Assembly: GCF_001570965.1 (NCBI RefSeq) | Contig: NZ_BCSR01000015.1 | Location: forward strand, 1-56,091 | DNA from: Janibacter corallicola NBRC 107790 | GTDB taxonomy: Bacteria; Actinomycetota; Actinomycetes; Actinomycetales; Dermatophilaceae | DNA length: 56,091 nucleotides | Direction of reading: 5' to 3' | Shown: piece after piece, positions 1,337-55,363 of the stretch | How positions within the stretch are numbered: position 1 is the first letter of the stretch | Layout of the letters: each line of letters begins with the position of its first letter | The notes under the pieces: model-generated | What the model was told of the DNA's origin: nothing | Database searches by the model: none | What the model saw: the letters and a program-made list of their open reading frames with translations, nothing else | Position numbers and translations under genes: made by a program

Positions 1337-1675
1337 GTGGTGCACACTGGCCCCGTGGAGTCGGAGCAGCACGAGAGCGGTGGGCAGCCCCCTTCGCCTC
1401 GACCGCCGATCGCCGTGGCGCCGCTGCGGGCCTGGTGGATCGTCCTCGCGGGGCTGCTCGTGGCCGCGCTCTTCATCCTCACCGACCACATGCTGCGGGC
1501 CACCGCGAGCCTGGCCGGGACGCTGCTGCTCGCGGCGGCCTTCCGACTCGTCCTCACCCCCGAGCAGGCCGGCGGGGTGGCCTCCCGCAGCAAGGTCGTC
1601 GACGTCGCCGTGCTCGTCACCCTCGGGGTCCTCGTGCTGATCTCGGGCTTCTCGCTGGACCTCACCGCCCGCTGA
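1337..1675 (+). CDS. DUF3017 membrane protein
   Basis: A 112-residue small integral membrane protein. After a hydrophilic N-terminus (GQPPSPRPP), there are about three hydrophobic segments: WWIVLAGLLVAALFIL, LAGTLLLAAAFRLVL and VAVLVTLGVLVLIS. Sequence pattern and position between folD and mdh match the actinobacterial DUF3017 family, whose role is not known. Two starts are possible: GTG 1337 (given) or GTG 1355. Neither has a clear Shine-Dalgarno sequence. Convergent with mdh through a shared terminator. Confidence 0.75.
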   Translation: MVHTGPVESEQHESGGQPPSPRPPIAVAPLRAWWIVLAGLLVAALFILTDHMLRATASLAGTLLLAAAFRLVLTPEQAGGVASRSKVVDVAVLVTLGVLVLISGFSLDLTAR

Positions 1676-1707
1676 GACCACCCGCGCATCTTTCCCCGGC
1701 TGGACAA

Positions 1708-1760
1708 GAGAAACCGCCGCTCGGCACGAGTTTCGAACTCATGCCGAGCGGCGGTTTCTC
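1708..1760. terminator. bidirectional terminator between DUF3017 and mdh
   Basis: A perfect 19-bp stem (1708-1726 with 1742-1760). Its loop can pair further (GAGTT with AACTC). It lies between two convergent genes and serves both. The A-rich/T-rich ends give short T runs on both strands. Confidence 0.85.
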
Positions 1761-1794
1761 GGGTCACCCGAGAATCGGTGACGAAGGGAGCGCG

Positions 1795-2790
1795 TCAGCC
1801 CTTGATGAGGCCCAGCTTGGTCACGGCCTCGCGCTCCTCGGTGAGCTCGGCGACGGAGGCGTCGATCCTGCCGCGGCTGAAGTCGTTGATCTCCAGGCCC
1901 TGGACGATCTCCCACTCGCCGTTCTTGACGGTGACGGGGAAGGAGGAGATGAGGCCCTCGGGCACGCCGTAGGAGCCGTCGGAGCAGACCGACATCGAGA
2001 CCCAGTCGCCCTCGGGGGTGCCCTGGGCCCAGTCGCGGGCGTGGTCGACGGTCGCGGAGGCGGCCGACGCGGCGGAGGAGGCACCACGGGCCTCGATGAT
2101 GGCCGCACCGCGCTTGGCGACGGTCGGGATGAAGGTCTTCTCCAGCCACTCCTGGTCGCCCACGGCCTCGGCGGCGTTCTTGCCCGCGACCTCGGCGTGG
2201 AAGATGTCCGGGTACTGGGTGGCGGAGTGGTTGCCCCAGACCGTCATCTTCGTGATCTCGGTGACCGGGACATCCAGCTTCGAGGACAGCTGGCCGATCG
2301 CGCGGTTGTGGTCCAGCCGGGTCAGCGCGGAGAAGTGGTTGCGCGGGATGTCCGGGGCGTTGCTCATCGCGATGAGCGCGTTGGTGTTCGCCGGGTTGCC
2401 GGTGATCGTCACGTGCACGTCGTCGGCCGCGACCTTGTTCAGGGCGGCGCCCTGCGGGGCGAAGATGCCGCCGTTGGCCTCGAGCAGGTCACCGCGCTCC
2501 ATGCCCGGGCCGCGCGGGCGGGCGCCGACGAGGAGGGCGTGGTTGACGCCGTCGAAGACCTTCTCCGGGTCGTCGCCGATCTCGACACCGGCGAGGGTCG
2601 GGAAGGCGCAGTCGTCGAGCTCCATGACGACGCCCTCGAGGGCCTTCAGCGCGGGGGTGATCTCCAGGAGGCGCAGCTCGACGGGGGTGTCGGGCCCGAA
2701 CAGGGAGCCGCTGGCGATGCGGAAGAGAAGGCTGTAGCCGATCTGACCGGCCGCACCGGTGACGGCGACCTTGACGGGAGTGTTGCTCAC
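1795..2790 (-). CDS. mdh: malate dehydrogenase
   Basis: A 331-residue NAD-dependent malate dehydrogenase of the TCA cycle, cytosolic. The N-terminal Rossmann motif is [11 protein letters not shown]. The active-site region includes [15 protein letters not shown] (mobile loop arginines), [19 protein letters not shown] and [11 protein letters not shown] with the catalytic His. Length and motifs are normal for the 'cytoplasmic-type' MDH of actinobacteria. The start is GTG at 2790 with AAGGGG (part of CGAAGGGG, 2798-2805) as its ribosome binding site. That site is also a copy of the genome-wide motif described in the findings. Confidence 0.97.
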
Positions 2791-2883
2791 TGGGGTACCC
2801 CTTCGTGGCTTGGGAGTATGAAGACTGCCGTCATCGACGCTAGCAGCGTGTGCCCTCCGCCCGGCAGTCAGGTCGCCGTGCGG

Positions 2884-3600: not shown

Positions 3601-4205
3601 GACGTCACCCCCAGCTGGTCCCGCAGGCGGATCAGGCCGTCCCGGATCCGGGTCTTGGCGGTGCCGAGCGGCAGCTCGAGCAGGCCGGCCACCTCGCGAT
3701 GGGTGTACCCGCCGAGGTAGGCGAGCGTCACCGCCTCGCGCTGGTGCTCGGTGAGTGCCGCCAGGGCCACGTGCACCCGCCGCGCCTCGAGCCGACCGGT
3801 CGCCTGCTCGGCCGTGGTGTCCGCCTCGGCCAGGTGGGTGCGGGCCTCGTATGCCCGGTCCCGCAGCACCTCGGCGTGGCTGCTGCGCACCCGGTCCACC
3901 GCCCGGCGGTGGGCGATCGTCATGAGCCAGCCGGGGGCCGAACCACGGGCCGGGTCGAAGCGGGCGGCGGTGCGCCACACCTCCAGGTACACCTCCTGGG
4001 TCACCTCCTCCGCCTGTGCCGGGTCGCGCAGGACGCGCAGCACCAGGCCGTACACCCTCGGCGCGGTCTCGTCGTACAACCGCGCGAAGGCGGCGTCATC
4101 CCCCTTCGCCACGCCCCGGAGGATCTCGGCGAGAGCGGTCCGGGCACCACTGTCGGCCCCGGCACGTCCGCCGGGACGGTCGGGGAGTGGGCGCACACCG
4201 TCCAT
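3597..4205 (-). CDS. sigK: ECF sigma factor, SigK type
   Basis: A 202-residue extracytoplasmic-function sigma factor. Region 2 includes FARLYDETAPRVYGLVLRVL, and AEEVTQEVYLEVWR follows. Region 4 includes LTEHQREAVTLAYLGGYTHREVA and the recognition helix around PLGTAKTRIRDGL. It is coupled to rskA, which identifies it as SigK-like rather than another ECF group. The ATG at 4205 was chosen because it begins just before the divergent N-terminus. A GTG at 4232 is also in frame and neither has a clear ribosome binding site. Confidence 0.88.
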   Translation of the reverse strand: MDGVRPLPDRPGGRAGADSGARTALAEILRGVAKGDDAAFARLYDETAPRVYGLVLRVLRDPAQAEEVTQEVYLEVWRTAARFDPARGSAPGWLMTIAHRRAVDRVRSSHAEVLRDRAYEARTHLAEADTTAEQATGRLEARRVHVALAALTEHQREAVTLAYLGGYTHREVAGLLELPLGTAKTRIRDGLIRLRDQLGVTS

Positions 4206-4251
4206 GATGGTGGTTCGGAGCCGCACCCGCACGCGGATGGGTCCGGACGGG

Positions 4252-4289
4252 CGAAGGGGGTCCGCGGCCGGTGCCGCAGACCCCCTTCG
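4252..4289 (-). terminator. terminator of icd made from an inverted pair of CGAAGGGGG
   Basis: A 17-bp stem with one mismatch (4252-4268 with 4273-4289) and loop CGGT, immediately after the icd stop. Each arm begins with one copy of the 9-mer CGAAGGGGG, in opposite orientations. Inverted uptake-sequence pairs acting as terminators are known from Neisseria and Pasteurellaceae, and the arrangement here is similar. Confidence 0.8.
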
Positions 4290-4305
4290 GGCGGAGCGTC
4301 CGGGC

Positions 4306-6525: not shown

Positions 6526-6671
6526 GAAAGTCCCTTCCGTGGGGTGCATGGGCATGGGCTGGGTGCGTCGCCCCGATCTTCCCACGAAGGGGGACGTGCC
6601 GATCCGATGGTCCGCTGTCACCCTCCGTTCGCCGCGACGTCAAAAAAGAGGGTCCGGCATCTGGTCACCGA

Positions 6672-6980: not shown

Positions 6981-9627
<2,647 letters not shown>

Positions 9628-24021: not shown

Positions 24022-24028
24022 GTCCGTC

Positions 24029-24034
24029 ACCCTA
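24029..24034 (-). promoter_or_regulatory. leaderless -10 box of deoC
   Basis: TAGGGT on the - strand, 7 nt before the deoC ATG. The box overlaps the TAG stop codon of the upstream gene. Confidence 0.65.
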
Positions 24035-26506: not shown

Positions 26507-26526
26507 CTTTCGAAGGGGGTCGAAAG
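26507..26526 (-). terminator. hairpin terminator after the uridine-kinase-like gene
   Basis: A 7-bp stem, CTTTCGA (26507-26513) with TCGAAAG (26520-26526), loop AGGGGG, just downstream of the gene's stop on the - strand. The loop and stem contain one copy of CGAAGGGGG. Confidence 0.6.
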
Positions 26527-26535
26527 CCGCCTTCG

Positions 26536-31170: not shown

Positions 31171-31193
31171 GGAGCGAAGGGGGTCGCGCCCTC

Positions 31194-39374: not shown

Positions 39375-40659
39375 GGTCTTCGCCGGCAGGTACGAGCTGC
39401 TCGAGCTCATCGGGCAGGGCGGCATGGGCTCGGTGTGGCGGGTCCACGACCGCCGCACCGACCGGATCGTCGCGGCCAAGGTGCTGCGCCAGTCCGATGC
39501 CGCCTCGCTGCTGCGCTTCGTGCGGGAGACCGCCTTCCGGGTCCAGCACCCGCACGTCGTCACCCCGCTCGGCTGGGTGGGGGAGGACGACCGGGTCCTC
39601 TTCACGATGCCGGTCGTCGACGGCGGGTCGGTCTCGACCCTCGTGGGGGACCACGGGCCGCTGCCGGCCCCCTTCGTCGCGGAGATCCTGCGTCAGCTCC
39701 TCGACGCGCTCGCCGCGGTGCACACCTCGGGGATCGTCCACAGGGACGTCAAACCGGCGAACATCCTGCTCGCGGCGACGGGGAGCGACCGGCCGCACAT
39801 CTACCTCACCGACTTCGGGATCGCTTCGGAGCTGGAGGGCCCACGCCTGACCGAGACCCACATGGCGCTCGGCACCCGCGGCTACATGGCACCGGAGCAG
39901 AGCCGGGGCGAGCTGGCCACGGCCAGCGACCTCTACGCCGTCGGGGCGGTCGCGGGCTACATGCTCACGGCGCAGTCACCGACCGGGGTCGGCCCCACGG
40001 CCTTCGCCCGGCCCCCGGGGGTACCCGACCCGATGTGGGGGCTGATCATGGAGCTGCTCGCGGAGCACCCGGCGCAGCGCCCGGTCTCCGCGACCGTCGC
40101 CCGGCAGCGGTTGGAGATCCCCGAGCTCGCCTGGACCCCGGAGGCTTCGGGTGAGGTCACGGTGCTGCGCCAGGTCGAGGCGCCCGAGTCCGAGGGGGAG
40201 AGCCCGCCCCCACCGCTGCGCCCGGAGTCCGCGCGGCCCTACCCGCCACCGCCGAACGTCCCCGCCCAGGCCGGTTCGCCTCCTCCCGGGCAGCCTGCGC
40301 CCCCCGGGCCGACGCAACCGGCGGGTCCCGGCCCGACCCAGCCCGCGGCCCCCGGCCCCACGACGCCCGAGCCGGGCGCCGGAGCGTCCCGGCGACGAGG
40401 CCGCGTGCTCGTCCCGCTCGGAGTCGTGACCGTCCTCGCCGTGCTCGTCGCGCTCTCCTTCGTCGTCGTCTGGGCACCGTGGTCCGGCGGCGGGGGAGAG
40501 GACGCCACGGACCTGCCCACCGTCACCCAGGACGTGGGGGACGAGTGCGACTTCACCGAGGTCGGCCTGCGCGGCGCGACCGAAGGGGGCGACGCCGTCC
40601 TGTGCACCCGGGCCGAGGACGGCACCTACTCCTGGGAGAGCGGGACCGAGCAGGACTAG
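39367..40659 (+). CDS. transmembrane Ser/Thr protein kinase
   Basis: A 430-residue eukaryotic-type kinase. The cytosolic kinase domain (~1-260) has IGQGGMGSVW, Lys38 in AAKVL, HRDVKPANIL, DFGIAS and MAPEQSRG. A Pro-rich linker (~290-345) leads to one membrane helix (LVPLGVVTVLAVLVALSFVV). The outer tail of ~45 residues contains two cysteines (DECDFTE, AVLCTRAEDG), possibly disulfide-bonded, and is too short for PASTA domains. GTG start 39367 lies inside the HTH gene. The stop TAG shares a CTAG with the convergent anchored-protein gene. Confidence 0.92.
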   Translation: MGEVFAGRYELLELIGQGGMGSVWRVHDRRTDRIVAAKVLRQSDAASLLRFVRETAFRVQHPHVVTPLGWVGEDDRVLFTMPVVDGGSVSTLVGDHGPLPAPFVAEILRQLLDALAAVHTSGIVHRDVKPANILLAATGSDRPHIYLTDFGIASELEGPRLTETHMALGTRGYMAPEQSRGELATASDLYAVGAVAGYMLTAQSPTGVGPTAFARPPGVPDPMWGLIMELLAEHPAQRPVSATVARQRLEIPELAWTPEASGEVTVLRQVEAPESEGESPPPPLRPESARPYPPPPNVPAQAGSPPPGQPAPPGPTQPAGPGPTQPAAPGPTTPEPGAGASRRRGRVLVPLGVVTVLAVLVALSFVVVWAPWSGGGGEDATDLPTVTQDVGDECDFTEVGLRGATEGGDAVLCTRAEDGTYSWESGTEQD

Positions 40660-41930
40660 CTCAGGCGCCGGATCACCAGCCAGATGCCGCCGCCGAGCAG
40701 CACGAGGAGCACCACGCCCCCGCCCAGCCACGGGAGCACCGCGCCGATGTCCGTCGACGACCCCTCGGCGGAATCGCCCCAGTCACCGGCGGTGAGGTCG
40801 TAGTCCACCTTCTTCGAGGCGGACCCGTCGACCTCGACCGTGAAGGCCACCTTGATCTTCTGCCCCTTGAGGGACTTGCCGAGGCCGGCGGTCCCGACGT
40901 TGACGGCGTAGTAGTACCACCCGCCCATGTGCGAGGACCACGTGTAGTCCTCGTAGCGGTTGAGGTAGCGCACCTCGGCCGTGTTCACCGACGACAGCAT
41001 GTTGTAGCCGCCGCCGTAGCTGCCGGTGTTGGGGTCCTCGACCAGGGTCCGGTCCGGCGCGTAGAGGACGCCGGCGATGTTGAGGGAGTCCAGCCCGTCC
41101 GAGGGGTACCGGAAGCCTCCGGTGGGCCCGTTGACGGTGAAGCGGGCGGTCTGCCCGTAGTCGACCCGGACCCGGTAGACCCGGGTCTGGCCCGGCGCGA
41201 TGGTGTCGGTCCAGGTGCCGGACGTGATCTCCGGGGCGTCGGTGAAGCCGGTGCCGCCCTCGACCGGCGTCGGGTCCGATGCCTTGAGGTCCTTGATGTC
41301 GGGAGCCTCCTCGACCCCCTTCGGCAGGTCCTTCAGGTCGCCCACCGGAGGCTCCTCGAGGACCTGGATCTCGGCCGGCAGGGTCTTGGTCGGCCCGTCC
41401 CTGCCCACGAGGACGGTGAAGGTGCCGGTGTTGCGACAGGAGGGCTCTCCGGAGGTGTCCGAGGCCGGCCACTTGCCCCACACGACGCCGGAGATCGTGA
41501 CGAACGGGGTGGTGCCGCTGCTGGAGTCGCCGAGGTAGGTCTCGTCGTCGAAGCACTCCGTGCCGTCCGGGGCGAGGAGGCGCAGGCGCAGGTCCTCGGT
41601 GTTGTAGTCGTCCGGGTCGCCGTAGGAGGTGGGCCGGGTGGTCAGCGAGACGTGCAGCGTCGAGCCCGGGGCGGTGCGCTCGACCCGGTAGGCCCGCCAC
41701 CCCTCCTCGCTGGAGGTGATCTTGTCGCGGTACACCCCGGGGGAGAGCGTGGGGGCGTCGTCGGGGAGCTGCTCGGCGCCCTTGAGATCGACGCCCTGCA
41801 CCGGGGTGCCGGCGAAGGGGGCTGACGTCCCGTCCCCGTCCGCCGCGGCCGGGGCCGTGGCGGGCAGCGAGAGCCCGCCGATCAGGGCAGCGCCGACGAG
41901 CGCTCGTGCCGCGATGGTCCTTCTGCTCAT
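40656..41930 (-). CDS. secreted, C-terminally anchored protein, VWA-less paralogue
   Basis: A 424-residue exported protein of unknown function. A signal peptide (~1-32, RRTIAARALVGAALIGGLSL to AAA) is followed by a globular region. It begins FAGTPVQGVDL and includes YRDKITSSEEGWRAYRVER, TLHVSLTTRP, GTFTVLVGRDGPTKTLP and FTVNGPTGGFRYPSDGLDSL. A membrane helix and RRLS end the chain. It aligns throughout with residues ~245-668 of the neighbouring VWA protein but has no VWA domain. ATG 41930 is the only start giving a proper signal peptide. Its promoter and leader are described separately. Its stop overlaps that of the kinase gene. Confidence 0.85.
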   Translation of the reverse strand: MSRRTIAARALVGAALIGGLSLPATAPAAADGDGTSAPFAGTPVQGVDLKGAEQLPDDAPTLSPGVYRDKITSSEEGWRAYRVERTAPGSTLHVSLTTRPTSYGDPDDYNTEDLRLRLLAPDGTECFDDETYLGDSSSGTTPFVTISGVVWGKWPASDTSGEPSCRNTGTFTVLVGRDGPTKTLPAEIQVLEEPPVGDLKDLPKGVEEAPDIKDLKASDPTPVEGGTGFTDAPEITSGTWTDTIAPGQTRVYRVRVDYGQTARFTVNGPTGGFRYPSDGLDSLNIAGVLYAPDRTLVEDPNTGSYGGGYNMLSSVNTAEVRYLNRYEDYTWSSHMGGWYYYAVNVGTAGLGKSLKGQKIKVAFTVEVDGSASKKVDYDLTAGDWGDSAEGSSTDIGAVLPWLGGGVVLLVLLGGGIWLVIRRLS

Positions 41931-42197: not shown

Positions 42198-44204
42198 TTA
42201 CGTGTTTCCGCGGATGCGACGGATGCCGAACCATGCCCCGGCTGCGAGGAGGAGCGCGGCGAGCAGTCCGCCACCGACCCAGGGGAGGAGGGAGCCCCCT
42301 TCGTCCTCGTCGCTGTCGGCGGCGCCGGCCTCCTCGCTCGTCCCGTCCGGGCCGGAGGGGTCCGGCTTCTCCCCGATGGCCGCTGCCTGCCAGTCCTCGT
42401 CCCCGGCGTACTCCGGCCCGCCCGAGGGCTTGCCCTCGAGGTCCACGGTGAAGGCCACCTTGATCGGCTGCCCGGCGAGCTCCTGGCCGAGGTCGCCCGC
42501 GCCGACGCCGACGGCGTAGTAGTACCAGCCGCCCATGTTGGATGCGCCGAGGTTGTCCCTGAGGTGGGTGTCGGCGTACCGGTTCCGGTAGCGCACGGGT
42601 GGCCCGGCGACAGACTTCGGAGAGCGCCCGTAGGTCTGGCTGAAGTTGCCGGTGATCAGGGTGTTGTCGGTGAGCGCCTGCCTGTCGGGGCCGAAGGCGC
42701 GCCCGTCCACGAAGAGGGAGTCCAGCTCGGACCCCTCGGGGTAGCGGAAGCCCCCGGTGGGTCCGTTGGCGGTGAACCGTGGTGTCTGGCCCGGCTCGAC
42801 CCAGACCCGGTACACGAGGGTCTCGCCGGGCACGAGGGTGTCGACCCAGGACCCCTCGGTGATCTCGGGGGCGTCGGCGAAGGAGAGTCCGCCGGTGATC
42901 GACCTGGTCCTGCCTGCCTTCAGCGTCTTCTCCGCCGGGTAGTCCTCGGCCGCCTTCGGCAGCTCGCCCAGGTTGGTCACGCGGGGTTCCTCGATGACCT
43001 GGATCTCGGTCGGGGTGGTCTGCGTGGCGCCGTCCCGCGTGACCAGGACGGTGAATTCTCCCTTCTTGGTGCAGGCGCGCGGGATGTCGCCGTCGGGCGA
43101 CTGGCCGCTGAGGCGTGCGGTGACCGTGGAGATCGGGTTCAGCCCCTGGTCGTACTCCCCGGTCCCGTCGTGGCTGCTGACGCACTCGGTGCCGTCCTGG
43201 GCGATGATCTCCAGGTCGAAGGTCTCCAGCCCCGACGGTTCGTCGCCCGCCCGGTAGTCGGAGGGCTTGGTGGCGAAGGAGACGTGCAGGGTGGACTTCT
43301 TCTGGGTGCGCTTGATGCTGTAGGCGCGCTGGGGGCCCTCGCCGGCGGCGAGTCGGTCGGTGAGCTCGTCGGTGTACAGGCCGGGCTTGAGGACGGGCAG
43401 GTCGGCGGGGAGCTGCTCGTCGGGATCGACCTCGACCCCCCTGACGGGCTGGCCGCTGAAGGAGAAGTCGCGCACCGCCCGGGTGGAGATCTTGTTCAGG
43501 CTCGTGGCCAGCTCGTCGGCGTCCGCGGCGTCGTAGTAGGTGCCGTTGCCGGTGTCGGCGAGGCACTCCAGCTGCTTGCGGGCCTTGTCGTCGACGGCGA
43601 AGCCGACGGTGTCGATGCGCAGGTCGACGCCCTTGCCGACGAGCTTCTTGATGGTGGGGCAGGGGTCGGGCACGCAGGACTCCTTGCCGTCGGAGACGAG
43701 GATGATGTTGCGCTTGCCCGTGTCGCCGAGGTCGTCGAGGCCCTTCTGCAGGGAGTGGGCGATGGGGGTCTCGCCCTTGGCCCTGAAGCCGTTGGCCGCC
43801 TTCTTCATGGCGGGTTTGTCCAGGGGGCCGACGGGGACGGCGAGCTGGGTGTCGTTGCAGGCGGCCTTGGTCGGTGTGCCGCCTTCCTCGGTGGCCCCGT
43901 AGACGCGCAGGCCGACGTCGGCGTCGTCGGGGAGGGAGTCCACGACCCCGGTCAGGGCCTTCTTCGCGGCCTGCATCTTGGTGCCGCCGGAGGGGTCCGG
44001 TTCCTTCATCGAGCCGGACGCGTCGAGCATGAGCAGCAGCTTGCCGTCGTCCGTGTTCGCGGCCGGCGCGGCAGCCGACGTGGTGGGTGCCGAGGAGGCT
44101 GCTCCCACGCTCGCGCCGGAGGTGCCGACGCCGGTGAGGACCAGCGCGCCGGCGAGGCCGGTGACGAGCAGAGTCCGTCGCAGGGCGGGTGTGGTGATGG
44201 GCAT
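42198..44204 (-). CDS. secreted, C-terminally anchored VWA-domain protein
   Basis: A 668-residue exported protein. After a signal peptide (~1-35) comes a VWA domain with a complete MIDAS: LLLMLDASGSMKEPDPSGGT (Asp61, Ser63, Ser65), KGETPIAHSLQKGL and IILVSDGKESC. The second half (~245 on) is a beta-rich region shared with the paralogue at 40656-41930 (for example FSGQPVRGVEVDP, TNGPTGGFRYP-like NGPTGGFRYPEG, GGWYYYAVGVGAGDLG). An acidic linker, a membrane helix and IRRIRGNT end the chain. The domain faces outward and could bind a metal-dependent ligand. No characterised homologue comes to mind. Confidence 0.88.
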   Translation of the reverse strand: MPITTPALRRTLLVTGLAGALVLTGVGTSGASVGAASSAPTTSAAAPAANTDDGKLLLMLDASGSMKEPDPSGGTKMQAAKKALTGVVDSLPDDADVGLRVYGATEEGGTPTKAACNDTQLAVPVGPLDKPAMKKAANGFRAKGETPIAHSLQKGLDDLGDTGKRNIILVSDGKESCVPDPCPTIKKLVGKGVDLRIDTVGFAVDDKARKQLECLADTGNGTYYDAADADELATSLNKISTRAVRDFSFSGQPVRGVEVDPDEQLPADLPVLKPGLYTDELTDRLAAGEGPQRAYSIKRTQKKSTLHVSFATKPSDYRAGDEPSGLETFDLEIIAQDGTECVSSHDGTGEYDQGLNPISTVTARLSGQSPDGDIPRACTKKGEFTVLVTRDGATQTTPTEIQVIEEPRVTNLGELPKAAEDYPAEKTLKAGRTRSITGGLSFADAPEITEGSWVDTLVPGETLVYRVWVEPGQTPRFTANGPTGGFRYPEGSELDSLFVDGRAFGPDRQALTDNTLITGNFSQTYGRSPKSVAGPPVRYRNRYADTHLRDNLGASNMGGWYYYAVGVGAGDLGQELAGQPIKVAFTVDLEGKPSGGPEYAGDEDWQAAAIGEKPDPSGPDGTSEEAGAADSDEDEGGSLLPWVGGGLLAALLLAAGAWFGIRRIRGNT

Positions 44205-46015: not shown

Positions 46016-47632
46016 ATGACCACCGATGCACGATCCCCGAGGCGCGACGACGCGGGTCCCACGTTCGGCGTGGGCACCTCGAAGGGGGACTCCGGCGTCG
46101 CGGACCTGCGCCAGCGACTGCGCAACGCCCACGCCCTCTCCGAGCGACCCACCGAGCGGGGCGCGGCGAAGCTGGAGTCGCAGAACAAGCTCTACGTGCG
46201 GGACCGGATCGCGCTGCTGCTCGACGAGGGCAGCTTCGTCGAGGACGGGCGCTACGCGAACTCCACCGCAGGCAACCTGCCCGCGGACGGCGTCGTCACC
46301 GGCCGGGGCCTGCTCGACGAGCGGCCCGTGATCGTCATCGCCAACGACCCGACCGTCAAGGCCGGCTCCTGGGGCAAGCGGACGGTCGAGAAGATCGTGC
46401 GCGCCACCGAGATGGCGCTCCGGGAGGAGCTGCCGGTCTGCTGGCTGGTGGACTCCGCGGGGGCGCGGATCACGGACCAGGTCGAGATGTTCCCCGGCCG
46501 CCGCGGCGCCGGGCACATCTTCCACAACCAGGTCGCCCTCTCCGGCAAGGTCCCCCAGGTCTGCTGCCTCTTCGGCCCGAGCGCGGCGGGCGGTGCCTAC
46601 ATCCCCTCCTTCACCGACCTGGTCATCATGGTCGACGGCAATGCCTCGATGTACCTGGGCAGCCCCCGCATGGCCGAGATGGTCGTGGGGGAGAAGGTCT
46701 CGCTCGAGGAGATGGGCGGTGCCCGGATGCACTGCACCGTGAGCGGCGTCGGGGACGTCCTCGTCGAGGACGACTCCGAGGCGATCGAGGTCGCCCGACT
46801 GTGGCTGAGCTACCTCCCGCAGAACTGGCACTCGGAGCTGCCGACGTACCAGCCGGAGCCGCCTGCCGTACCCCTCACGGAGGCGACCGTCCCGGAGCGG
46901 GAGTCCGAGCCCTTCGACGTGCACGACGTCATCGACGGCCTCGTCGACGAGGACTCCTTCTTCGAGGTCAAGGAGCTCTTCGCCCCCGAGCTCGTCGTCG
47001 GCCTCGGCCGGATGGACGGCGAGACCGTCGGCATCGTCGCCAACAACTCGATGGCCAAGGGTGGGGTGCTCTTCACCGACAGCGCGGACAAGGCGGCCCG
47101 CTTCATCTGGCTGTGCGACGCCTACTCCATCCCGCTGATCTACCTCGCGGACGTGCCCGGCTTCATGATCGGCTCCGAGGTCGAGCGCGGCGGCATCATC
47201 CGCCACGGCGCGAAGATGGTCTCCGCGGTCTCCTCGGCGACCGTCCCGCAGTTCTGCGTCGTCGTGCGCAAGGCCTACGGCGCCGGCCTCTACGCGATGG
47301 GCGGGCCCGGCTTCGCCCCGGACGCGACGATCGCGCTGCCCACCGCGCGGATCGCCGTCATGGGTCCCGAGGCGGCGGTCAACGCGGTCTACGCCAACAC
47401 GATCGCGCAGATCGAGGCCGAGCAGGGCGAGGAGGCACGCGAGGAGTTCATCGCCGCCAAGCGCGCGGAGTACCTCGAGGACGTCGACCTCGAGCGCCTC
47501 GCGAGCGACCTCGTCATCGACCAGGTGACCGAGCCCGAGGACCTGCGCGGCGAGCTGCTCGCCCGGCTGCGCCACGCCCGCGGTCGGGAGCGCGCCTTCT
47601 CCACCCGCCGACGGGACATCCCGCCGGTGTGA
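46016..47632 (+). CDS. acyl-CoA carboxylase beta (carboxyltransferase) subunit
   Basis: A 538-residue carboxyltransferase. The N-terminal half has LYVRDRIALLLDEGSFVEDG, WLVDSAGARITDQVEMFPGR and FGPSAAGGAYIPSFTD. The C-terminal half has IYLADVPGFMIGSEVERGGI and KAYGAGLYAMGGPGFAPD, the oxyanion-hole regions. Together with a biotinylated alpha subunit (one is at 31214-32977) it carboxylates an acyl-CoA. Context favours methylcrotonyl-CoA (AccD1-like), but propionyl- or acetyl-CoA cannot be excluded. ATG 46016 has GAAGGGAG seven nt upstream. No enoyl-CoA hydratase or lyase follows in this window. Confidence 0.9.
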   Translation: MTTDARSPRRDDAGPTFGVGTSKGDSGVADLRQRLRNAHALSERPTERGAAKLESQNKLYVRDRIALLLDEGSFVEDGRYANSTAGNLPADGVVTGRGLLDERPVIVIANDPTVKAGSWGKRTVEKIVRATEMALREELPVCWLVDSAGARITDQVEMFPGRRGAGHIFHNQVALSGKVPQVCCLFGPSAAGGAYIPSFTDLVIMVDGNASMYLGSPRMAEMVVGEKVSLEEMGGARMHCTVSGVGDVLVEDDSEAIEVARLWLSYLPQNWHSELPTYQPEPPAVPLTEATVPERESEPFDVHDVIDGLVDEDSFFEVKELFAPELVVGLGRMDGETVGIVANNSMAKGGVLFTDSADKAARFIWLCDAYSIPLIYLADVPGFMIGSEVERGGIIRHGAKMVSAVSSATVPQFCVVVRKAYGAGLYAMGGPGFAPDATIALPTARIAVMGPEAAVNAVYANTIAQIEAEQGEEAREEFIAAKRAEYLEDVDLERLASDLVIDQVTEPEDLRGELLARLRHARGRERAFSTRRRDIPPV

Positions 47633-47681
47633 CCGGGGGCGGATCCCCCTTCGTCCTGCACGCGGAGCACTTCATCCTTAC

Positions 47682-48795: not shown

Positions 48796-49434
48796 TCAGC
48801 TCGGCACGGCCAGGTCCCACCAGGCCGTGCCGAGCTCGGCGAGCATCGTGCGCAGCAGCGGCAGGCAGACCCCGACCACCGTGCTCGGGTGGCCCTCGAT
48901 GCCCTCGACGAAGGGGGCTCCCCGCCCGTCGATCGTGAACCCGCCCGCGACGTGCAGCGGCTCGCCGGTGGCGATGTAGCCCTCGATCTCCGCGTCGCCG
49001 ACGTCGGCGAAGGTCACCCGGGCCGAGGCGGAGCGACCCACCGCGGGGCTGACACCACCGGCGCCGTCGGTCATCGTGAGCCAGTGCCCGGTGTGCAGCA
49101 CGCCGGTGCGGCCGCGCATCCGGGCCCACCGCTCGCGCGCCCGCCCGGCCGTGTGGGGCTTGCCGAAGATCTCCCCGTCCAGCTCGAGCACCGAGTCGCA
49201 GGCCAGGACCGGCCCCGGTGACCCGGCGCGGGGGGCGACGTCCGCCCCCTTCGCCTCCGCGAGCAGCTGCGCGACCTCGCCCGGGGTGATCGCCGGGTCC
49301 CCCTCCCGCGCCCGGGCCTCCACGGCGGTCTCGTCGACGTCGCTGACGAGCACCGCGGGCTCGATCCCGCAGGCGCGGAGCAGTCCCAGGCGGGCGGGGG
49401 AGGCCGAGGCGAGGGTGAGTGTGTGCACGCGCAC
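48796..49434 (-). CDS. maf: Maf-family nucleotide pyrophosphatase
   Basis: A 212-residue Maf/YhdE-type nucleoside triphosphate pyrophosphatase (house-cleaning; dTTP/UTP or modified nucleotides). It has the N-terminal LTLASASPARLGLLRACGIEP, VSDVDETAV, LACDSVLELDGEIFGKP, and the catalytic region YIATGEPLHVAGGFTIDGRG and IEGHPSTVVGVCLPLL. GTG 49434 was chosen as the codon directly before RVHTLTLASAS, with AAAGGA upstream. In mycobacteria maf lies near accA3/accD5. Here the carboxylase genes are also near but not adjacent. Confidence 0.93.
   Translation of the reverse strand: MRVHTLTLASASPARLGLLRACGIEPAVLVSDVDETAVEARAREGDPAITPGEVAQLLAEAKGADVAPRAGSPGPVLACDSVLELDGEIFGKPHTAGRARERWARMRGRTGVLHTGHWLTMTDGAGGVSPAVGRSASARVTFADVGDAEIEGYIATGEPLHVAGGFTIDGRGAPFVEGIEGHPSTVVGVCLPLLRTMLAELGTAWWDLAVPS
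48799..48835 (+). terminator. subtilase terminator inside the maf 3' end
   Basis: A perfect 13-bp stem (48799-48811 with 48823-48835), loop of 11 nt, starts 12 nt after the subtilase stop. It lies wholly within the last codons of the convergent maf gene. Confidence 0.75.
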
Positions 49435-49514: not shown

Positions 49515-50801
49515 ATGTCAGCGACGATGAAGTCAGCGACGACGAAGCGGGTGGCCCTCGCCGGGGCCCTCAGCCTTGCACTGGTCATCCCCATGGCCGG
49601 CACCGCCTCCGCCGGACCGGACGACATCCCCGGGACCGCAGGGGCCGCCACGCTCACCGACACCCCGGAGCCGGAGCGCCCTGACTTCTACGAACCGCCG
49701 GAGCAGATCCCGAGCACGCCGGGCACGATCATCCGCACGGAGCCGGCGACCTTCCTGCTCGACCCGCTGGGCCTCTCCTCGAATGTCGTCACCGCCACCC
49801 GGGTCATGTACTCCTCGACGGACGTCGACGGCAACCCGATCGCGGTCACCGGCACCGTCTTCGTGCCGAAGACGAAGTACATCGGGGCCTCGGAGCGCCC
49901 GCTGATCTCCTACACCGCCGGCACCCAGGGAATGGCGGACGCGTGTGCACCGTCCCGGCAGATGTCCGAGCTCGTGGAGTACGAGGGCATCGGCATCGCC
50001 CGGACGGTCAGCCGTGGCTACGCGGTGGCCATGTCCGACTACCAGGGCCTCGGGACCCCCGGCTCCCACACCTACATGGTCCGTGAGGCCCAGGGGCACG
50101 CGAGCCTGGACATGGCCCGTGCCGCCCGGCAGCTGACGGGTGACGACGTCGACACCTCGAACCCGATCGGCCTCATGGGCTACTCCCAGGGTGGGGGTGC
50201 CGCGGCGGCAGCCGCGGAGCTGGCCGAGAGCTACGCGCCCGAGCTGCCGATCAAGGGGTCGGCCATCGGCGCCCCGCCGGCCGACCTGGGCAAGGTGGCC
50301 CAGAACATCGAGGGGGGCCTGTACAACGCCTTCGCCCTCTTCGCCACCCTCGGCCTGGCCCAGGCCGAGCACATCGACCCCGGGCCGGTGCTCAACGACA
50401 AGGGGGAGGAGCTCGCCGCCTCGGTCGAGGGCTCCTGCGTCTACAACCTCTTCGACTACGCCTTCAAGGACAGCGGGCAGTACACCGAGAGCGGGAAGAA
50501 GCTCACCGAGCTGCTGAAGGAGGAGCCCTTCGCCTCCGCCGTCGAGGAGCAGCGCATCGGCAGGTTGACGCCGAACGCCCCGGTCGAGATCAACCATGCT
50601 GTCGCCGACGACGTGATCCCCTACGAGGTCGGCAAGCAGCTGGGCCGCGACTGGTGCGCGAAGGGGGCCCGGGTCACCCTCAACCCCGGCCTGACCCCGA
50701 CGCACGTCGGCGGCATGGTCCCGCACGTGGAGAAGTCGATGTACTTCTTCGAGAAGCGCTTCGCCGGGAAGAGCACCGCGAACAGCTGCTGGCGCCTCTG
50801 A
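49515..50801 (+). CDS. secretory lipase (triacylglycerol lipase-like)
   Basis: A 428-residue secreted alpha/beta hydrolase. A signal peptide (~1-33, ending TASAG) precedes the mature enzyme. The catalytic Ser is in GLMGYSQGGGAAAAAA. The preceding SYTAGTQGMADACAPS and YAVAMSDYQGLGTPGSHTY match the secretory lipase (LIP) family. The late PTHVGGMVPH segment supplies the probable catalytic His. Cysteines at NACAPS-like DACAPS, GSCVYN, DWCAKG and NSCWRL could form disulfides. It may release fatty acids or hydrolyse esters outside the cell. Confidence 0.9.
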   Translation: MSATMKSATTKRVALAGALSLALVIPMAGTASAGPDDIPGTAGAATLTDTPEPERPDFYEPPEQIPSTPGTIIRTEPATFLLDPLGLSSNVVTATRVMYSSTDVDGNPIAVTGTVFVPKTKYIGASERPLISYTAGTQGMADACAPSRQMSELVEYEGIGIARTVSRGYAVAMSDYQGLGTPGSHTYMVREAQGHASLDMARAARQLTGDDVDTSNPIGLMGYSQGGGAAAAAAELAESYAPELPIKGSAIGAPPADLGKVAQNIEGGLYNAFALFATLGLAQAEHIDPGPVLNDKGEELAASVEGSCVYNLFDYAFKDSGQYTESGKKLTELLKEEPFASAVEEQRIGRLTPNAPVEINHAVADDVIPYEVGKQLGRDWCAKGARVTLNPGLTPTHVGGMVPHVEKSMYFFEKRFAGKSTANSCWRL

Positions 50802-51704: not shown

Positions 51705-51710
51705 AGGTTA
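51705..51710 (-). promoter_or_regulatory. leaderless -10 box of the lipoprotein gene
   Basis: TAACCT on the - strand, 6 nt before ATG 51698. Confidence 0.6.
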
Positions 51711-51741
51711 CGACCGGCGTGCGATCGGGACAACGGCGGTC

Positions 51742-53430
51742 TCAGATCTCGCCGAGGACGGCACCCCGCAGCGTGTCCAGGCCCATCCCACCGAGGTCGA
51801 GCGCCCGCCGGTGGAAGTCGGCCAGGTCGAAGGCCGCACCGGCACGGCGGCGGGCCTCCTCGCGCAGCTGCAGCCAGAGTCGCTCGCCGACCTTGTACGA
51901 GGGCGCCTGCCCCGGCCAGCCGAGGTAGCGGTCCAGCTCGAAGCGCAGGAAGCCCTCCTCCATGTTCGCGTGGGCGCTGAGGAAGGACCAGGCCTTGTCG
52001 TGGTCCCAGTGGCCGCCGCCGACCTCGGCCGGGGCCTCGAAGCCGCAGTGCACGCCGATGTCGAGCACGACCCGCGCCGCGCGCAGACTCTGCCCGTCGA
52101 GGAGTCCCATCCGGTTGCCCGGGTCGTCCATGTGGCCCAGCTCGGCCATGAGCCACTCGGCGTACAGCGCCCACCCCTCGGCGTGGCCGGAGGTGAAGGA
52201 GGAGTGCCGCCGCCACCGGTTGAGCAGCTCGCGCCGGTGCACGGTCTGCCCGATCTGCAGGTGGTGACCGGGCACGCCCTCGTGGTACACGGTCGTCAGC
52301 TCGCGCCACGTGCCGAACTCCGTGACCCCCTTCGGCACCGACCACCACATCCGACCGGGCCGGCTGAAGTCGTCGCTCGGCCCGGTGTAGTAGATCCCGC
52401 CGGTCTGGGTCGGGGCGATCATGCACTCGATGGTGCGCACCGGCTCGGGGATGGCGAAGTGCCCGGACCCGAGCAGCTCGACGGCCTCGTCGGCGGTGCG
52501 CTGCATCCACTCCTGCAGCGCCTCGGTGCCCTGCAGCCGGTAGCGCGGGTCGCGGTCGAGCGCGGCGACGGCCTCCTCGACGCCCGCGCCGGGGAGGATC
52601 TGCTCGGCGACCTCCTGCATCTGCGCGGTGATCCGGGCCAGCTCCTCCTGCCCCCACGCGTACGTCTCCTCGAGGTCGACCTCGGCGCCGAGGAAGGCGC
52701 GCGAGTGCAGCCGGTAGTTCTCGATCCCGCAGCCATCGGCCTGCGGAGCCTTCTCCCGCAACGTCCCCAGCCGTCCGGCGAGGTCGCGGTAACCGGCTGC
52801 CGCGGTCTCGACACCGCGCCGCAGGTCCGCCGCGACGGAGTCGGGGAGTGCGCCCCCGCCCTCGAGCGCGGCACCGGAGAGCAGCGCCGCGAAGTAGCCG
52901 TCCGGGGCGGTGAGGTCACCGCACTGGTCGATGCACCGGTCGTACTGACGAAGGGGGGCGATCTCCCCCTTCGCCGCGGCGGCGGAGAGGGACTCGGTCC
53001 ACTGCTCCAGGGCGGTCGGGATCCGCTCCAGGCGGCCGGCGATCCGCCCCCAGTCCTCCGACGTCGCCGTGGGCATCAGATCCAGGACGTCGCGCACCTC
53101 CTGCATGGGGGAGGCGAGCACGTTGATCGTGGCCAGGTCCAGACCCGCCTCGTGGATCTCCTCGGCGAGGCCGAGACGCTCGCGCATCGCCGCGAGCGTC
53201 ACCCGGTCCACGTCGTCGACGGGGCTCGCCTGCTCCAGCGAGGCGAGGGTCGAGCGTCGCAGCCGGGAGGCGGCGGCGTACCCGTCCGGGGAGAAGTCGT
53301 CGACCTCGGTGTCGTGACCGGGGATCCCCAGGTACGTGGCGGCGAGGGGGGAGAGGTCGACCTCGGCGTCGAAGTGTGCCTCGGCGATGCGGTCGACGTC
53401 GGTCTGCGGGCGGCTCTGCTCACTGATCAC
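51742..53430 (-). CDS. DUF885 metallopeptidase-like protein
   Basis: A 562-residue protein of the DUF885 family, related to zinc carboxypeptidases/oligopeptidases. The putative metal site is VYHEGVPGHHLQIGQ (HExxxxHH-like), with a downstream FTSGHAEGWALYAEWLM that supplies the third ligand region. It has no signal peptide, so it is cytosolic. The start is GTG 53430, 7 nt after TACCGT. An inverted pair of CGAAGGGGG within the gene (52949-52973) forms a 9-bp hairpin. Confidence 0.88.
   Translation of the reverse strand: MISEQSRPQTDVDRIAEAHFDAEVDLSPLAATYLGIPGHDTEVDDFSPDGYAAASRLRRSTLASLEQASPVDDVDRVTLAAMRERLGLAEEIHEAGLDLATINVLASPMQEVRDVLDLMPTATSEDWGRIAGRLERIPTALEQWTESLSAAAAKGEIAPLRQYDRCIDQCGDLTAPDGYFAALLSGAALEGGGALPDSVAADLRRGVETAAAGYRDLAGRLGTLREKAPQADGCGIENYRLHSRAFLGAEVDLEETYAWGQEELARITAQMQEVAEQILPGAGVEEAVAALDRDPRYRLQGTEALQEWMQRTADEAVELLGSGHFAIPEPVRTIECMIAPTQTGGIYYTGPSDDFSRPGRMWWSVPKGVTEFGTWRELTTVYHEGVPGHHLQIGQTVHRRELLNRWRRHSSFTSGHAEGWALYAEWLMAELGHMDDPGNRMGLLDGQSLRAARVVLDIGVHCGFEAPAEVGGGHWDHDKAWSFLSAHANMEEGFLRFELDRYLGWPGQAPSYKVGERLWLQLREEARRRAGAAFDLADFHRRALDLGGMGLDTLRGAVLGEI
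52949..52973. repeat. inverted pair of the CGAAGGGGG motif inside the DUF885 gene
   Basis: CGAAGGGGG (52949-52957) and CCCCCTTCG (52965-52973), separated by 7 nt, give a perfect 9-bp stem within coding sequence. Confidence 0.85.
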
Positions 53431-53437
53431 GCAGTGG

Positions 53438-53443
53438 ACGGTA
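53438..53443 (-). promoter_or_regulatory. leaderless -10 box of the DUF885 gene
   Basis: TACCGT on the - strand, 7 nt before GTG 53430, with no ribosome binding site. Confidence 0.55.
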
Positions 53444-53476
53444 CCCGCGTCGCGGCCCCGATGCGCCGCGGGATCC

Positions 53477-55363
53477 TCAGACGAGGGTCTCGTCGACGAA
53501 GCACCAGCGCCACGCCTCACCCGGCTCGAGGGAGCGCATCACGGGGTGCCCGGTCTGCTCGTGGTGGGCGGTCGCGTGGCCGTGGGAGGAGTCGCAGCAG
53601 CCGACGTGACCGCAGCTGAGGCAGACGCGCAGGTGCAGCCAGGTGAGCTCCTTCGCGAGGCACTCCTCGCAGCCGTCGGGTTCGCGGGGGACGACCGACT
53701 CGGGAAGGTCGCGCTGGTGCTCGCACTCGCCGGTGATCCGCTCCGGGGCCAGCAGCGGCGCACTGCGCACCGCGTCGGTGCGGGCGCCGATCGACTCGAG
53801 CGTGGACTCCTCGGCGTCGAGCGCCCCGAGGACCTGGGCGAGGACCTGGTGGTCGACCAGCCCTGAGTCGCGGATGCGCAGCAGCTCGGCGCGCTCGGCC
53901 TGCAGGACCGGTAGCCGGATGCGGCGGTAGGCATCGCTCGGTGACTCGGTCTCGCTGCGTCCCAAGCGTTCCCACACCCGGTTGACACGTTGGCGAGCCT
54001 GCTGGCGCAGTCGGGCGGCGGCGTCCTCGTCGACGTCGGGCAGCTCCTCGAGGCGGCGCAGCCCGGCGACGACGGCGGCCTGGGTGACCGTGGCCTCCTG
54101 GAGGGCGTCCTCGCGCGGGTCCGGCCCGTGGACGCCGAGGGTGCGGGCGAGCAGCGGCAGCGTCGTGCCCTGGATGAGCAGGGTGCCGATCGTCACCGTC
54201 ATCGCGACGAGGACGAGGGTCGGGCGGTGCGGGGTGTCGTGCGGCAGCAGCAGCGCCGCGGCGAGCGTCACGACACCTCGCATGCCCGCCCAGCTGACGA
54301 CGAGGCTCTCCTGCCACGGCCGCAGCCGGTCCCGCTCCCGACGGGAGAGGCGGGCGCGCAGCCAGCGCAGGGGGAAGATCCACGCCGGGCGCAGCGCGAG
54401 CACGGTCACGAGGACCGCCAGGCCGATGAGCAGGGTGGAGCCGAGACCGAGCACGGAGGCGCGGACGTCGTCGACGAGCGAGCTCAGCTGCAGCCCGATG
54501 ACGAGGAAGACGGCGTTTTCGAGGATGAACTGGATGCTCGCCCAGTTGGACCGCTCCGACAGCCGGGAGCGGGCGTTCTGCAGGACCGGCGCACGGTGGC
54601 CGAGGAGCAGCCCCGTGGTGACGACCGCGAGCACGCCGGAGGAGTGGACCAGCTCGGCCGGCAGGTAGGAGGCGAAGGGGGCGATGAAGCTGATCGTCGT
54701 GTCGACCACCGGGGAGTGGGTGTGCGTGCGCAGCACGGCCAGCGCCTTGTAGGCGAGGTACCCGATGAGCACGCCGCCGAGGGCGGCGCGCACGAAGTCC
54801 CGGCCGACGGAGGCGATCGTCACCTCGGTGTCCCCGACGCCGGCGTGGCCGGCGGCCAGCCCCGCGGCAGCCATGGCGGTGCGCAGCGAGACGAGCGCGG
54901 TGGCGTCGTTGAGGAGGGACTCGCCCTCGAGGAGGGTGACCGCCCGGCGCGGCAGCCCGATGGCCCGGGCGACGGCGGTGGCGGCCACCGCGTCCGGCGG
55001 CGCGACGATCGCGCCGAGGGCGAAGGCCAGGGCGAAGGAGATCGGCAGCAACGCGCTCGCGACGACCGCGACGCCGAGGGCCGTGACGAGCACGAGCGCG
55101 ATCGACAGCCCGGCGATGGCCACGCGCTGGGCCTTGAGGTCGACGAGCGAGGTCGAGATCGCGGTGGCGTAGAGGAGGGGCGGCAGCAGCCCGATGAGGA
55201 CGACCTCCGAGGAGAGCGTGATGTCGGGGACCCACGGGACGAAGGAGATCGCGGCCCCGGCCGCCAGGAGGAGCAGGGGCGTGAGCAGGCCCAGTCGCGA
55301 CGCGATGCCGTGGACGAGCAGCGAGGCGAGGGCGATGGCGAGCAGGGTGAGGGCGAGCTGCAC
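53477..55363 (-). CDS. CPA1-type Na+/H+ antiporter with C-terminal UBP zinc finger
   Basis: A 628-residue monovalent cation/proton antiporter. About 12 helices span ~1-415, with the family motif GESLLNDATALVSLRTA (ion-binding Asn-Asp) and SWAGMRGVVTLAAALLLP. A helical cytosolic region (~430-540) leads to a UBP-type zinc finger at ~550-620. That finger has CEECL, CLSCGHVGCC and the histidines of SSHGHATAHHEQTGHPV. Free-standing bacterial UBP fingers are small proteins of unknown role. Here one is fused to the transporter tail, where it may sense or bind a partner. GTG start 55363 follows GACAAT by 6 nt. Confidence 0.9.
   Translation of the reverse strand: MQLALTLLAIALASLLVHGIASRLGLLTPLLLLAAGAAISFVPWVPDITLSSEVVLIGLLPPLLYATAISTSLVDLKAQRVAIAGLSIALVLVTALGVAVVASALLPISFALAFALGAIVAPPDAVAATAVARAIGLPRRAVTLLEGESLLNDATALVSLRTAMAAAGLAAGHAGVGDTEVTIASVGRDFVRAALGGVLIGYLAYKALAVLRTHTHSPVVDTTISFIAPFASYLPAELVHSSGVLAVVTTGLLLGHRAPVLQNARSRLSERSNWASIQFILENAVFLVIGLQLSSLVDDVRASVLGLGSTLLIGLAVLVTVLALRPAWIFPLRWLRARLSRRERDRLRPWQESLVVSWAGMRGVVTLAAALLLPHDTPHRPTLVLVAMTVTIGTLLIQGTTLPLLARTLGVHGPDPREDALQEATVTQAAVVAGLRRLEELPDVDEDAAARLRQQARQRVNRVWERLGRSETESPSDAYRRIRLPVLQAERAELLRIRDSGLVDHQVLAQVLGALDAEESTLESIGARTDAVRSAPLLAPERITGECEHQRDLPESVVPREPDGCEECLAKELTWLHLRVCLSCGHVGCCDSSHGHATAHHEQTGHPVMRSLEPGEAWRWCFVDETLV

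Follow-up and report, generated by a model that had tools for sequence, protein, structure and literature searches.

The 56,091-nucleotide stretch of Janibacter corallicola NBRC 107790 analyzed here (contig NZ_BCSR01000015.1; hereafter the window) raises the question of why a single 9-bp word, CGAAGGGGG, recurs along it so often and on both strands. Exact counting gave 32 copies, 17 forward and 15 reverse, spanning positions 1388-54681, which agrees with the count in an earlier note on this DNA; that note put the excess at about 19-fold and likened the word to DNA uptake sequences or HIP1-like genome motifs. The reverse complement of CGAAGGGGG, CCCCCTTCG, is a different word, so CGAAGGGGG is not a palindrome. 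The analysis described below indicates that CGAAGGGGG is probably a self-recognition mark resembling a DNA uptake sequence, directional in its action and with dialects in these Gram-positive bacteria.

The word is far more frequent than composition predicts. In 100 dinucleotide-preserving shuffles of the window the mean count was 1.02 and the maximum 4, corresponding to a ∼31-fold excess, and when up to one mismatch was allowed, 90 sites were seen against 34 expected. The window is contig 15 of the strain's own genome (G000; 3,107,415 bases in 92 contigs), in which CGAAGGGGG occurs 833 times on each strand, or 1,666 times in ∼3.1 Mb; a mirrored control, the same word read backwards, occurs 14 and 8 times, 22 in all. 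The earlier note had asked whether the density across the genome falls near expectation; at 0.54 copies/kb it is close to the 0.57/kb of the window. An order-3 Markov model on a sample of 456,091 bases (20 stretches of G000 plus the window) predicted 14.0 copies against 259 seen. This 18.5-fold excess makes the 19-fold figure a fair one, with the dinucleotide shuffle giving the larger value.

A short word might also become common as an artefact of composition or codon usage or by the dispersal of a mobile repeat, and CGAAGGGGG and the family word CGGCATAC, described below, both fit favored reading frames. When synonymous codons were shuffled with the proteins kept, the coding part of the G000 sample yielded 29.4 ± 5.0 copies (maximum 45 of 100 shuffles) against 195 seen, and the coding DNA of genome G012 yielded 19.3 ± 3.5 against 132; genes were called with a simple codon-likelihood caller written for this analysis, and their boundaries are approximate. 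The codon-matched shuffle, which the earlier note had itself suggested as a counter-test, thus failed to reproduce the counts in either genome. These figures rule out a codon or dipeptide effect and uphold the note's rejection of an effect on mRNA or codons. The flanks of the word are low in information, with G favored at -2, a purine at -1, and G seldom found directly after the word, which rules out a longer mobile repeat containing it; a C-rich bias ∼16-19 bases past the word fits inverted partners. With the synonymous shuffles, the mirrored control, and the flanks all against it, the artefact explanation is regarded as refuted and retains virtually no probability.

One-mismatch forms of CGAAGGGGG were mostly at background in the G000 sample. 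Two variants, CGAAGGGGC and CGAAGGGTG, were depleted; enriched were CGAAGGGAG (68 against 13.5 expected), CGAAGGGGA (42 against 9.1), CGAAGGGGT (25 against 11.1), and CGAAGAGGG (20 against 10.6). In coding DNA CGAAGGGAG exceeded synonymous shuffles 17-fold in G000 (52 against 3.1) and 34-fold in G012 (58 against 1.7), and it is probably a second accepted form of the Janibacter word. The window has ten copies of this variant, at 1782, 7229, 11277, 11735, 20339, 23813, 28570, 35339, 44696, and 46003.

The enrichment of CGAAGGGGG is confined to one clade. All 16 genomes of the window's genus were enriched, and in a survey of the family (186 genomes, 53 genera) the 19 genomes of the Janibacter-type genera g1 and g35 all held 797-1,939 copies, with at most 80 in each of the remaining 167. 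In a sample of the order (396 genomes, 35 of them in the family) enrichment was again seen in members of g1 and g35 only, the 361 genomes outside the family holding no more than 101 copies each. Among named loci, the word was present in seven of eight from Janibacter and missing from one, a 9.3-kb piece of Candidatus J. merdipullorum; Streptomyces loci hold four copies and Micromonospora loci one. The Streptomyces and Micromonospora loci have top words of their own, such as CAAGGGCAA, which may come from shared genes. Between Janibacter species the individual sites show moderate retention and fast turnover: of the 337 sites aligned in mutually non-independent comparisons among ten Janibacter samples, 88 were shared, against 49.6 predicted by flank-matched 9-mers, and 249 were present on one side only. 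At 60% flank identity, retention (1/45) was no higher than the control (5%).

Comparison with related genera, which the earlier note had proposed, showed that the other genera carry other words. In named loci of Knoellia, Phycicoccus, Pedococcus, Terrabacter, Intrasporangium, Humibacillus, Ornithinimicrobium, and others, CGGCATACC and its forms are over-represented; 89 kb of Knoellia holds 48 copies of a word of this type against 1.0 expected. CGGCATAC reaches at least 380 copies in 107 of the 186 family genomes and 30 of the 53 genera, an arbitrary cut below which some genomes are weakly enriched, and its strands are near equal (2,348 and 2,376 in G099, for example). The 19 Janibacter-type genomes hold 7 to 41 copies of CGGCATAC, all 12 genomes of g46 are without it, and in 272 sampled genomes of 18 other families it never exceeded 177 copies. 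A third word, CGGCATCC, first found in G178 and G032, is carried by three genera (g9, g15, and g51) at 1,850 to 2,258 copies per strand in G032, G049, and G178 and at similar levels in G033 and G050; the rest of the family has 111 to 674 per strand, commonly about twice the mirrored word. Two genomes, G051 and G052, carry both words, with ∼1,000 copies of CGGCATCC and 600 of CGGCATAC per strand.

These dialects are kept within genera and follow phylogeny, the lone exceptions inside genera being G023, G083, and G113, single species of positive genera in which CGGCATAC is low. The six Janibacter rows of a 55-row ComEC tree group together as a single clade (support 99/87) with Kribbia as its sister (86/97), and CGGCATAC is scattered widely through the family. 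The word labels need 11 changes on this tree against 20.6 with shuffled labels; each label comes from a single 10-22 kb locus, so that "none" may result from the small sample, and the branch leading to row L131 is very long. No clear further word emerged in 40 kb each of g46 (two genomes), g11, g31, g53, g37, g16, g28, g2, g5, g12, g34, G023, and G113, or in 20 kb of G083. The word search in other families used single 20-kb stretches, too short to decide, with 3 of 20 (<10 kb) left out. None of CGGCATACC, GGTATGCCG, CGAAGGGGG, CCCCCTTCG, ACGGCATAC, and GTATGCCGT occurred as a whole word in the literature searched, which excluded most subscription journals and preprints.

Several further words were encountered in these surveys. 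Weak hints were obtained for CGGCGTAC in G017 (23 against 5.0 expected) and GGGCGTAC in G029 (15 against 2.2). At loci L103, L129, and L133, CCGCATAC is the top or near-top word (7, 6, and 6 copies against 0.5 expected); it is one base off CGGCATAC and is perhaps a fourth dialect. In family f18, CGGCATCC is raised in L218 (G219), with strand counts of 23 and 8 in 20 kb against 4.9 expected, and GGCATCCG, which overlaps CGGCATCC, is raised in L216 (G204); given its unequal strands, the excess in L218 is either a codon effect or a distant dialect. ACCCTAGG occurs eight times per strand in the 20 kb of L080 (G012:2800001-2820000) against 0.5 expected, an unexplained local repeat. ACCGTCGAA and neighboring words occur 26-30 times in 40 kb of G030 (L197 and L198), almost all in one orientation, as an array of repeats that may be a CRISPR or a repetitive gene. 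Finally, the ComEC of locus L130 (QEUR01000011.1, labeled "Acidobacteria bacterium") lies among those of Ornithinimicrobium. CGGCATAC is present there at 0.32/kb, and the contig is probably mis-binned.

The copies are also spaced by a rule that depends on orientation. The strands alternate almost perfectly in the window, where 4 of 31 neighboring copies share an orientation, and 77 of 238 do so in the G000 sample including the window; the alternation in the window is an extreme local case of a real tendency. Pair correlations were calculated for a pooled Janibacter set (1,176,091 bases, 604 CGAAGGGGG sites) and for a CGGCATAC set (1,017,610 bases, 636 sites, comprising G078 and 31 named loci chosen for >0.25 copies/kb). 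At separations of 50-1,000 bp, same-orientation pairs occurred at 0.42-0.59 of expectation for CGAAGGGGG and 0.45-0.72 for CGGCATAC, returning to 1 by 1.5-2 kb in both sets. Opposite-orientation pairs showed no comparable dip (0.86-1.23 and 1.21-1.38, respectively). Neighbors 100-1,000 bp apart had the same orientation in 49 of 176 cases (0.28) for CGAAGGGGG and 72 of 252 (0.29) for CGGCATAC, compared with means of 0.54 and 0.53 for control 7-mers (376 and 343), the lowest of which were parts of the two words; next came near-palindromes like CAGCTGC and CGCGCGA. Sites of CGGCATCC were too few for its spacing to be judged.

Hairpins and deletion between direct repeats were considered as causes of this rule. 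After removal of sites in pairs <100 bp apart, there were 28 same- and 83 opposite-orientation pairs at 100-600 bp for CGAAGGGGG and 42 and 119 for CGGCATAC, and opposite pairs then exceeded expectation (1.45-1.66); since the rule persists without the members of close pairs, hairpins are ruled out. Deletion is likewise ruled out, because ordinary repeated 9-mers lean the other way, being direct in 0.59-0.66 of cases at 100-600 bp in the Janibacter set and 0.57-0.62 in the CGGCATAC set. That two unrelated words follow the same spacing rule suggests that a single directional process probably reads both. A similar count was obtained for the neisserial DNA uptake sequence (DUS) DUS10: 63 non-redundant phage-associated stretches among the matches listed contained 20 same- and 45 opposite-orientation pairs at 100-600 bp. 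They were drawn from at least 103 stretches longer than 2 kb that held 0.3 copies/kb or more, were selected for containing a hairpin, and are not a genome sample. Such a rule may have been overlooked in Neisseria.

Because the spacing rule is directional, the main rival explanation is a Chi-like signal, in which a strand-reading helicase-nuclease would recognize the word in one orientation and switch to RecA loading, each strand needing a copy every 1-2 kb. Orientation-specific spacing is what a directional reader would produce. Known Chi words are G-rich, as is CGAAGGGGG, and RecC was found in all 10 Janibacter-type genomes tested. However, CGGCATAC is not G-rich, and among the 51 genomes tested, 24 of which have RecC, this protein and the word are dissociated both ways. 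RecC is absent from the CGGCATAC-rich G020, G054, G058, G060, G061, G071, G093, G137, G148, and G169, among others, and is present where no word was found, in G016, G035, G053, G069, G095, and G183. This dissociation disfavors a RecBCD-Chi system, and a Chi-like signal would also leave the lack of consistent replication polarity, described next, to be explained; it is considered unlikely, although it deserves more weight than any other rival.

Replication polarity was checked in samples of three single-contig genomes, G001, G012, and G078, the origin being placed only for G078, by a cluster of DnaA boxes at the start of its contig. No consistent replichore polarity or leading-strand bias of the words was found in these samples: the halves gave 59/64 and 57/68 for CGGCATAC in G078 and 39/37 and 42/40 in G001, with a weak difference in G012 that is considered below, and the strand totals of G000 are equal. 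A polarity signal of the type of FtsK-orienting polar sequences (KOPS) or architecture-imparting sequences (AIMS) is ruled out by the lack of strong polarity in the three sampled genomes, and the earlier note's dismissal of a KOPS-type signal is borne out. A site for a chromosome-organizing or segregation protein in the wider sense (KOPS/AIMS-like, bound by a nucleoid protein, or gyrase-like) might account for the fairly even spread of CGAAGGGGG in two genomes, where the variance of counts per 20 kb is below the mean (9.1 against 11.4 in G000 and 10.1 against 11.7 in G012, though 18.0 against 7.9 in G001). It would not lead one to expect a change of dialect inside the family, low counts in single species, or inverted pairs at gene ends, and it lacks the consistent polarity as well; it is considered quite improbable.

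With respect to genes, the words are denser in intergenic than in coding DNA, at 1.39 against 0.48/kb in G000 and 1.84 against 0.45/kb in G012 for CGAAGGGGG and 0.94 against 0.57/kb for CGGCATAC; unpaired Janibacter copies are intergenic-rich too (0.65 against 0.40/kb). Sense and antisense copies number 105 and 90 in G000, 66 and 66 in G012, and 138 and 163 for CGGCATAC. Coding copies of CGAAGGGGG fall mostly in two of the three frames, and antisense copies seem more frequent toward the 5' side of genes (quintiles 41, 36, 32, 23, and 24 as raw counts in G000 and G012 together). Of 48 Janibacter inverted pairs <60 bp apart, 44 are ordered forward-reverse, and 38 are intergenic, with 31 of the 38 no more than 30 bp from the 3' end of a gene. 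By the gene calls, the close inverted pairs are in terminator position, mostly just behind stop codons.

Copies are scarce in DNA of low GC content. Of eight 5-kb bins with GC <0.66, seven have no CGAAGGGGG, and the mean there is 0.25 copies, compared with ∼3 in the 87 bins at GC 0.71-0.73. Near-absence from low-GC, possibly acquired DNA, together with restriction to one clade, might suggest that the word serves a defence or restriction-modification system, its modified form denoting self. Restriction sites are usually avoided, whereas CGAAGGGGG is enriched, and a non-palindromic 9-bp word, the orientation-specific spacing, and the inverted pairs at gene ends would all be left unexplained; the chance that such a system accounts for the word is slender. 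Lack of copies is no proof of foreign origin, since core cell-wall genes, beside transport genes, lie in a 20-kb stretch of G001 that has no copy.

The sites in the window illustrate these positions. By the gene calls used here, 13 copies are in sense, 11 in antisense, and 8 intergenic. The earlier note had assigned 13, 13, and 6, the discrepancy being one of gene boundaries. One close inverted pair, formed by the copies at 4252..4260 (+) and 4281..4289 (-), makes a predicted intergenic stem-loop (4252..4289, minus strand) that lies 16 bp past the stop codon of gene 4306-6525(-), an isocitrate dehydrogenase by Pfam match, in terminator position. The calculated fold of 4244-4300(-) has -39.8 kcal/mol (z -5.5). 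A second pair lies within gene 51742-53430(-), where an antisense copy at 52949..52957 (+) and a sense copy at 52965..52973 (-) would form the arms (fold z -2.4). The intergenic copy at 26511..26519 (+) has a degenerate inverted partner, CGAAGGCGG, at 26527-26535(-); this stretch folds no better than shuffles do (z 0.20). The other intergenic copies are at 1388..1396 (-), 6585..6593 (+), 31175..31183 (+), 41813..41821 (+), and 47645..47653 (-), the last 12 bp downstream of gene 46070-47632(+).

Four genes of the window other than 51742-53430(-) contain both a sense and an antisense copy: 18672-19940(+), with 19154..19162 (+) in sense and 19369..19377 (-) in antisense; 27185-28918(-), with 27400..27408 (-) and 27973..27981 (+); 33051-35582(-), with 34711..34719 (-) and 34491..34499 (+); and 48796-49434(-), with 49245..49253 (-) and 48909..48917 (+). 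A fifth, 39367-40659(+), has its sense copy at 40581..40589 (+) and its antisense copy at 39668..39676 (-). The remaining sense copies are at 4100..4108 (-) in gene 3597-4112(-), 9539..9547 (+) in 8614-9627(+), 41315..41323 (-) in 40656-41801(-), 42295..42303 (-) in 42198-44204(-), 46080..46088 (+) in 46070-47632(+), 50659..50667 (+) in 49527-50801(+), and 52326..52334 (-) in 51742-53430(-). The remaining antisense copies are at 16065..16073 (-) in gene 16049-17575(+), 24003..24011 (+) in 23245-24030(-), 30798..30806 (-) in 29788-31170(+), 38250..38258 (+) in 37873-38793(-), and 54673..54681 (+) in 53477-55363(-). The predicted domains of two of these genes were also noted. The single open frame 33051-35582(-) encodes HAMP, HisKA, and HATPase domains together with DUF4153 and is either a fused sensor kinase or a frame running through two genes. 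The product of 53477-55363(-) is a Na+/H+ exchanger with a C-terminal zf-UBP zinc finger, a pairing that appears unusual.

Genes that could serve DNA uptake are present in G000, which has comEC, comEA with SLBB and HhH domains, and a tad-type locus with a T2SSE ATPase, two T2SSF genes, and a ParA-like ATPase; no pilin family was matched at this tad-type locus. Across the family, ComEC was matched in 180 of 186 genomes, with or without a word. A comEA gene was called in 66 of 84 loci, among which no dialect-specific feature was evident by eye.

On the favored reading, CGAAGGGGG would be the Janibacter dialect of a genome-wide mark of self-DNA, acting like the DUS of Neisseriaceae and the uptake signal sequence (USS) of Pasteurellaceae. 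A surface or wall-spanning receptor would favor word-bearing DNA, and DNA of the same kind would enter preferentially through the ComEA-ComEC channel and then recombine. This uptake bias, a molecular drive, would spread and maintain copies where coding constraint permits. Each copy would act one way over ∼1 kb, so that same-orientation copies within that distance would be redundant and avoided and opposite copies would not. Related genera would use other words, such as CGGCATAC and CGGCATCC, with one system beneath all of them, and the Janibacter ancestor would have switched its word, or gained one, on its own branch. The likeness to DNA uptake sequences proposed in the earlier note is supported and indeed made stronger by genus-wide conservation, the dialects in relatives, the terminator-position inverted pairs, and the near-absence of copies from low-GC bins. 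A more specific proposal adds that self-DNA recognition arose independently in Gram-positive actinobacteria, by a tad/ComEA-ComEC route, with several dialects, a complete word change in Janibacter, and a directional reader promoting entry or recombination of ∼1 kb on one side or strand; the chances of this fuller version are about even.

A number of observations weigh against an uptake mark. With regard to the words themselves, single deviations from CGAAGGGGG are not uniformly rare, CGAAGGGAG and CGAAGGGGA being enriched as well, and CGGCATAC is unclean in g4 and g18, where counts of the mirrored word are as high as 40% of its own. Strand balance is imperfect, with a weak difference between the sampled halves of G012 (41+/51- and 58+/37-) and a local imbalance of 7+/21- in two adjacent stretches of G078 (L253-L254). 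The Haemophilus word USS9 showed no spacing tendency (10 same, 5 opposite in 36 stretches of 92, a sample that is too small and, like that for DUS10, selected for a hairpin). In PMC1939737, uptake by H. influenzae is reported to be independent of USS orientation, so a plain USS does not predict orientation-specific spacing.

The machinery genes tested do not track the word either. ComEC is found in word-less genomes, T2SSF genes occur in 183 of the 186 family genomes, and no competence gene tested follows the word. ComEC was not matched in G031, G066, G121, G128, G168, and G181, yet all six genomes carry CGGCATAC, five at >1,000 copies; they are 58%-95% complete in 30-760 contigs and hence incomplete or fragmented, which leaves the absence of ComEC unproven. 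No receptor for the word was identified. The classical type IV pilin N terminus PF07963 was matched in 3 of 51 genomes, including 1 of the 10 Janibacter-type genomes tested; given its rarity, no ComP relative recognizable by that domain is expected, and the word is not filed as a Neisseria-type DUS. In the same literature search, no paper was found that links Janibacter or Intrasporangiaceae to natural transformation or Ornithinimicrobium to natural competence, and none on uptake sequences in these taxa or in actinobacteria was seen among the matches listed.

If the uptake reading is correct, a large Gram-positive family would provide a convergent case, making sequence-selective DNA uptake a recurrent outcome, and a second dialect phylogeny in which drive, loss, and switching could be measured. 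It would also allow natural transformability among actinobacteria, and the DNA suited to it, to be predicted, and genetics in Janibacter, Knoellia, and their relatives would gain a practical approach. The 1-kb orientation-specific spacing rule predicts a direction of uptake or recombination, possibly in Neisseria too.

Among known systems, Chi is a short over-represented word that acts in one orientation. The present words differ from it in the lack of consistent replication polarity, the dissociation of RecC and word, and the change of dialect inside a family. HIP1 of cyanobacteria (highly iterated palindrome 1) is a very dense, genome-wide short motif, a palindromic octamer. CGAAGGGGG is not palindromic and its orientation matters; the HIP1-like alternative raised in the earlier note is disfavored because the word is no palindrome.

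We know of no uptake word for Micrococcus luteus. Transformation of this organism requires comEA-comEC plus tad/Flp pili (PMC8467076, PMC6370729), and the terms "uptake sequence," "uptake signal," and "specificity" are absent from PMC8467076. G000 resembles M. luteus in having comEA-comEC and a tad-type locus and differs in the lack of a matched pilin family at that locus.

The Pasteurellaceae USS is a word of 9-10 bp with a mean spacing of ∼1 kb and close inverted pairs at gene ends (PMC7811141), in excess in non-coding DNA and without orientation bias around the chromosome (PMC1939737). Unlike subtypes occur within one family (PMC2346458; PMC3630211), intragenic copies are biased to gene termini, and intergenic inverted repeats of uptake words have been proposed as terminators (PMC2346458). 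The words described here share the size, the non-coding excess, the absence of a chromosome-wide orientation bias, and, for CGAAGGGGG, the inverted pairs at gene ends; in place of the bias to gene termini, the raw counts show a possible lean of antisense copies to the 5' part.

A 2016 review names two families with evolved sequence tags, Pasteurellaceae and Neisseriaceae, whose uptake words have hundreds to thousands of copies and dialects, and notes that strandedness can affect transformation (PMC5031613). In Neisseriaceae the DUS is 10-12 bp long and present in thousands of copies, with eight dialects that share a core and follow phylogeny, two in one genome in one case, and some members without any (PMC3630211). 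The present case differs in that the hosts are Gram-positive actinobacteria, 48 of 51 genomes lack the classical type IV pilin domain, and the words are unrelated to the DUS, the Janibacter word and CGGCATAC having no obvious common core. It resembles the neisserial system in the dense word, the dialects, the presence of two words in one genome, the family members in which no word was found, the inverted pairs, and the deficit of same-orientation pairs that the DUS10 sample also displays.

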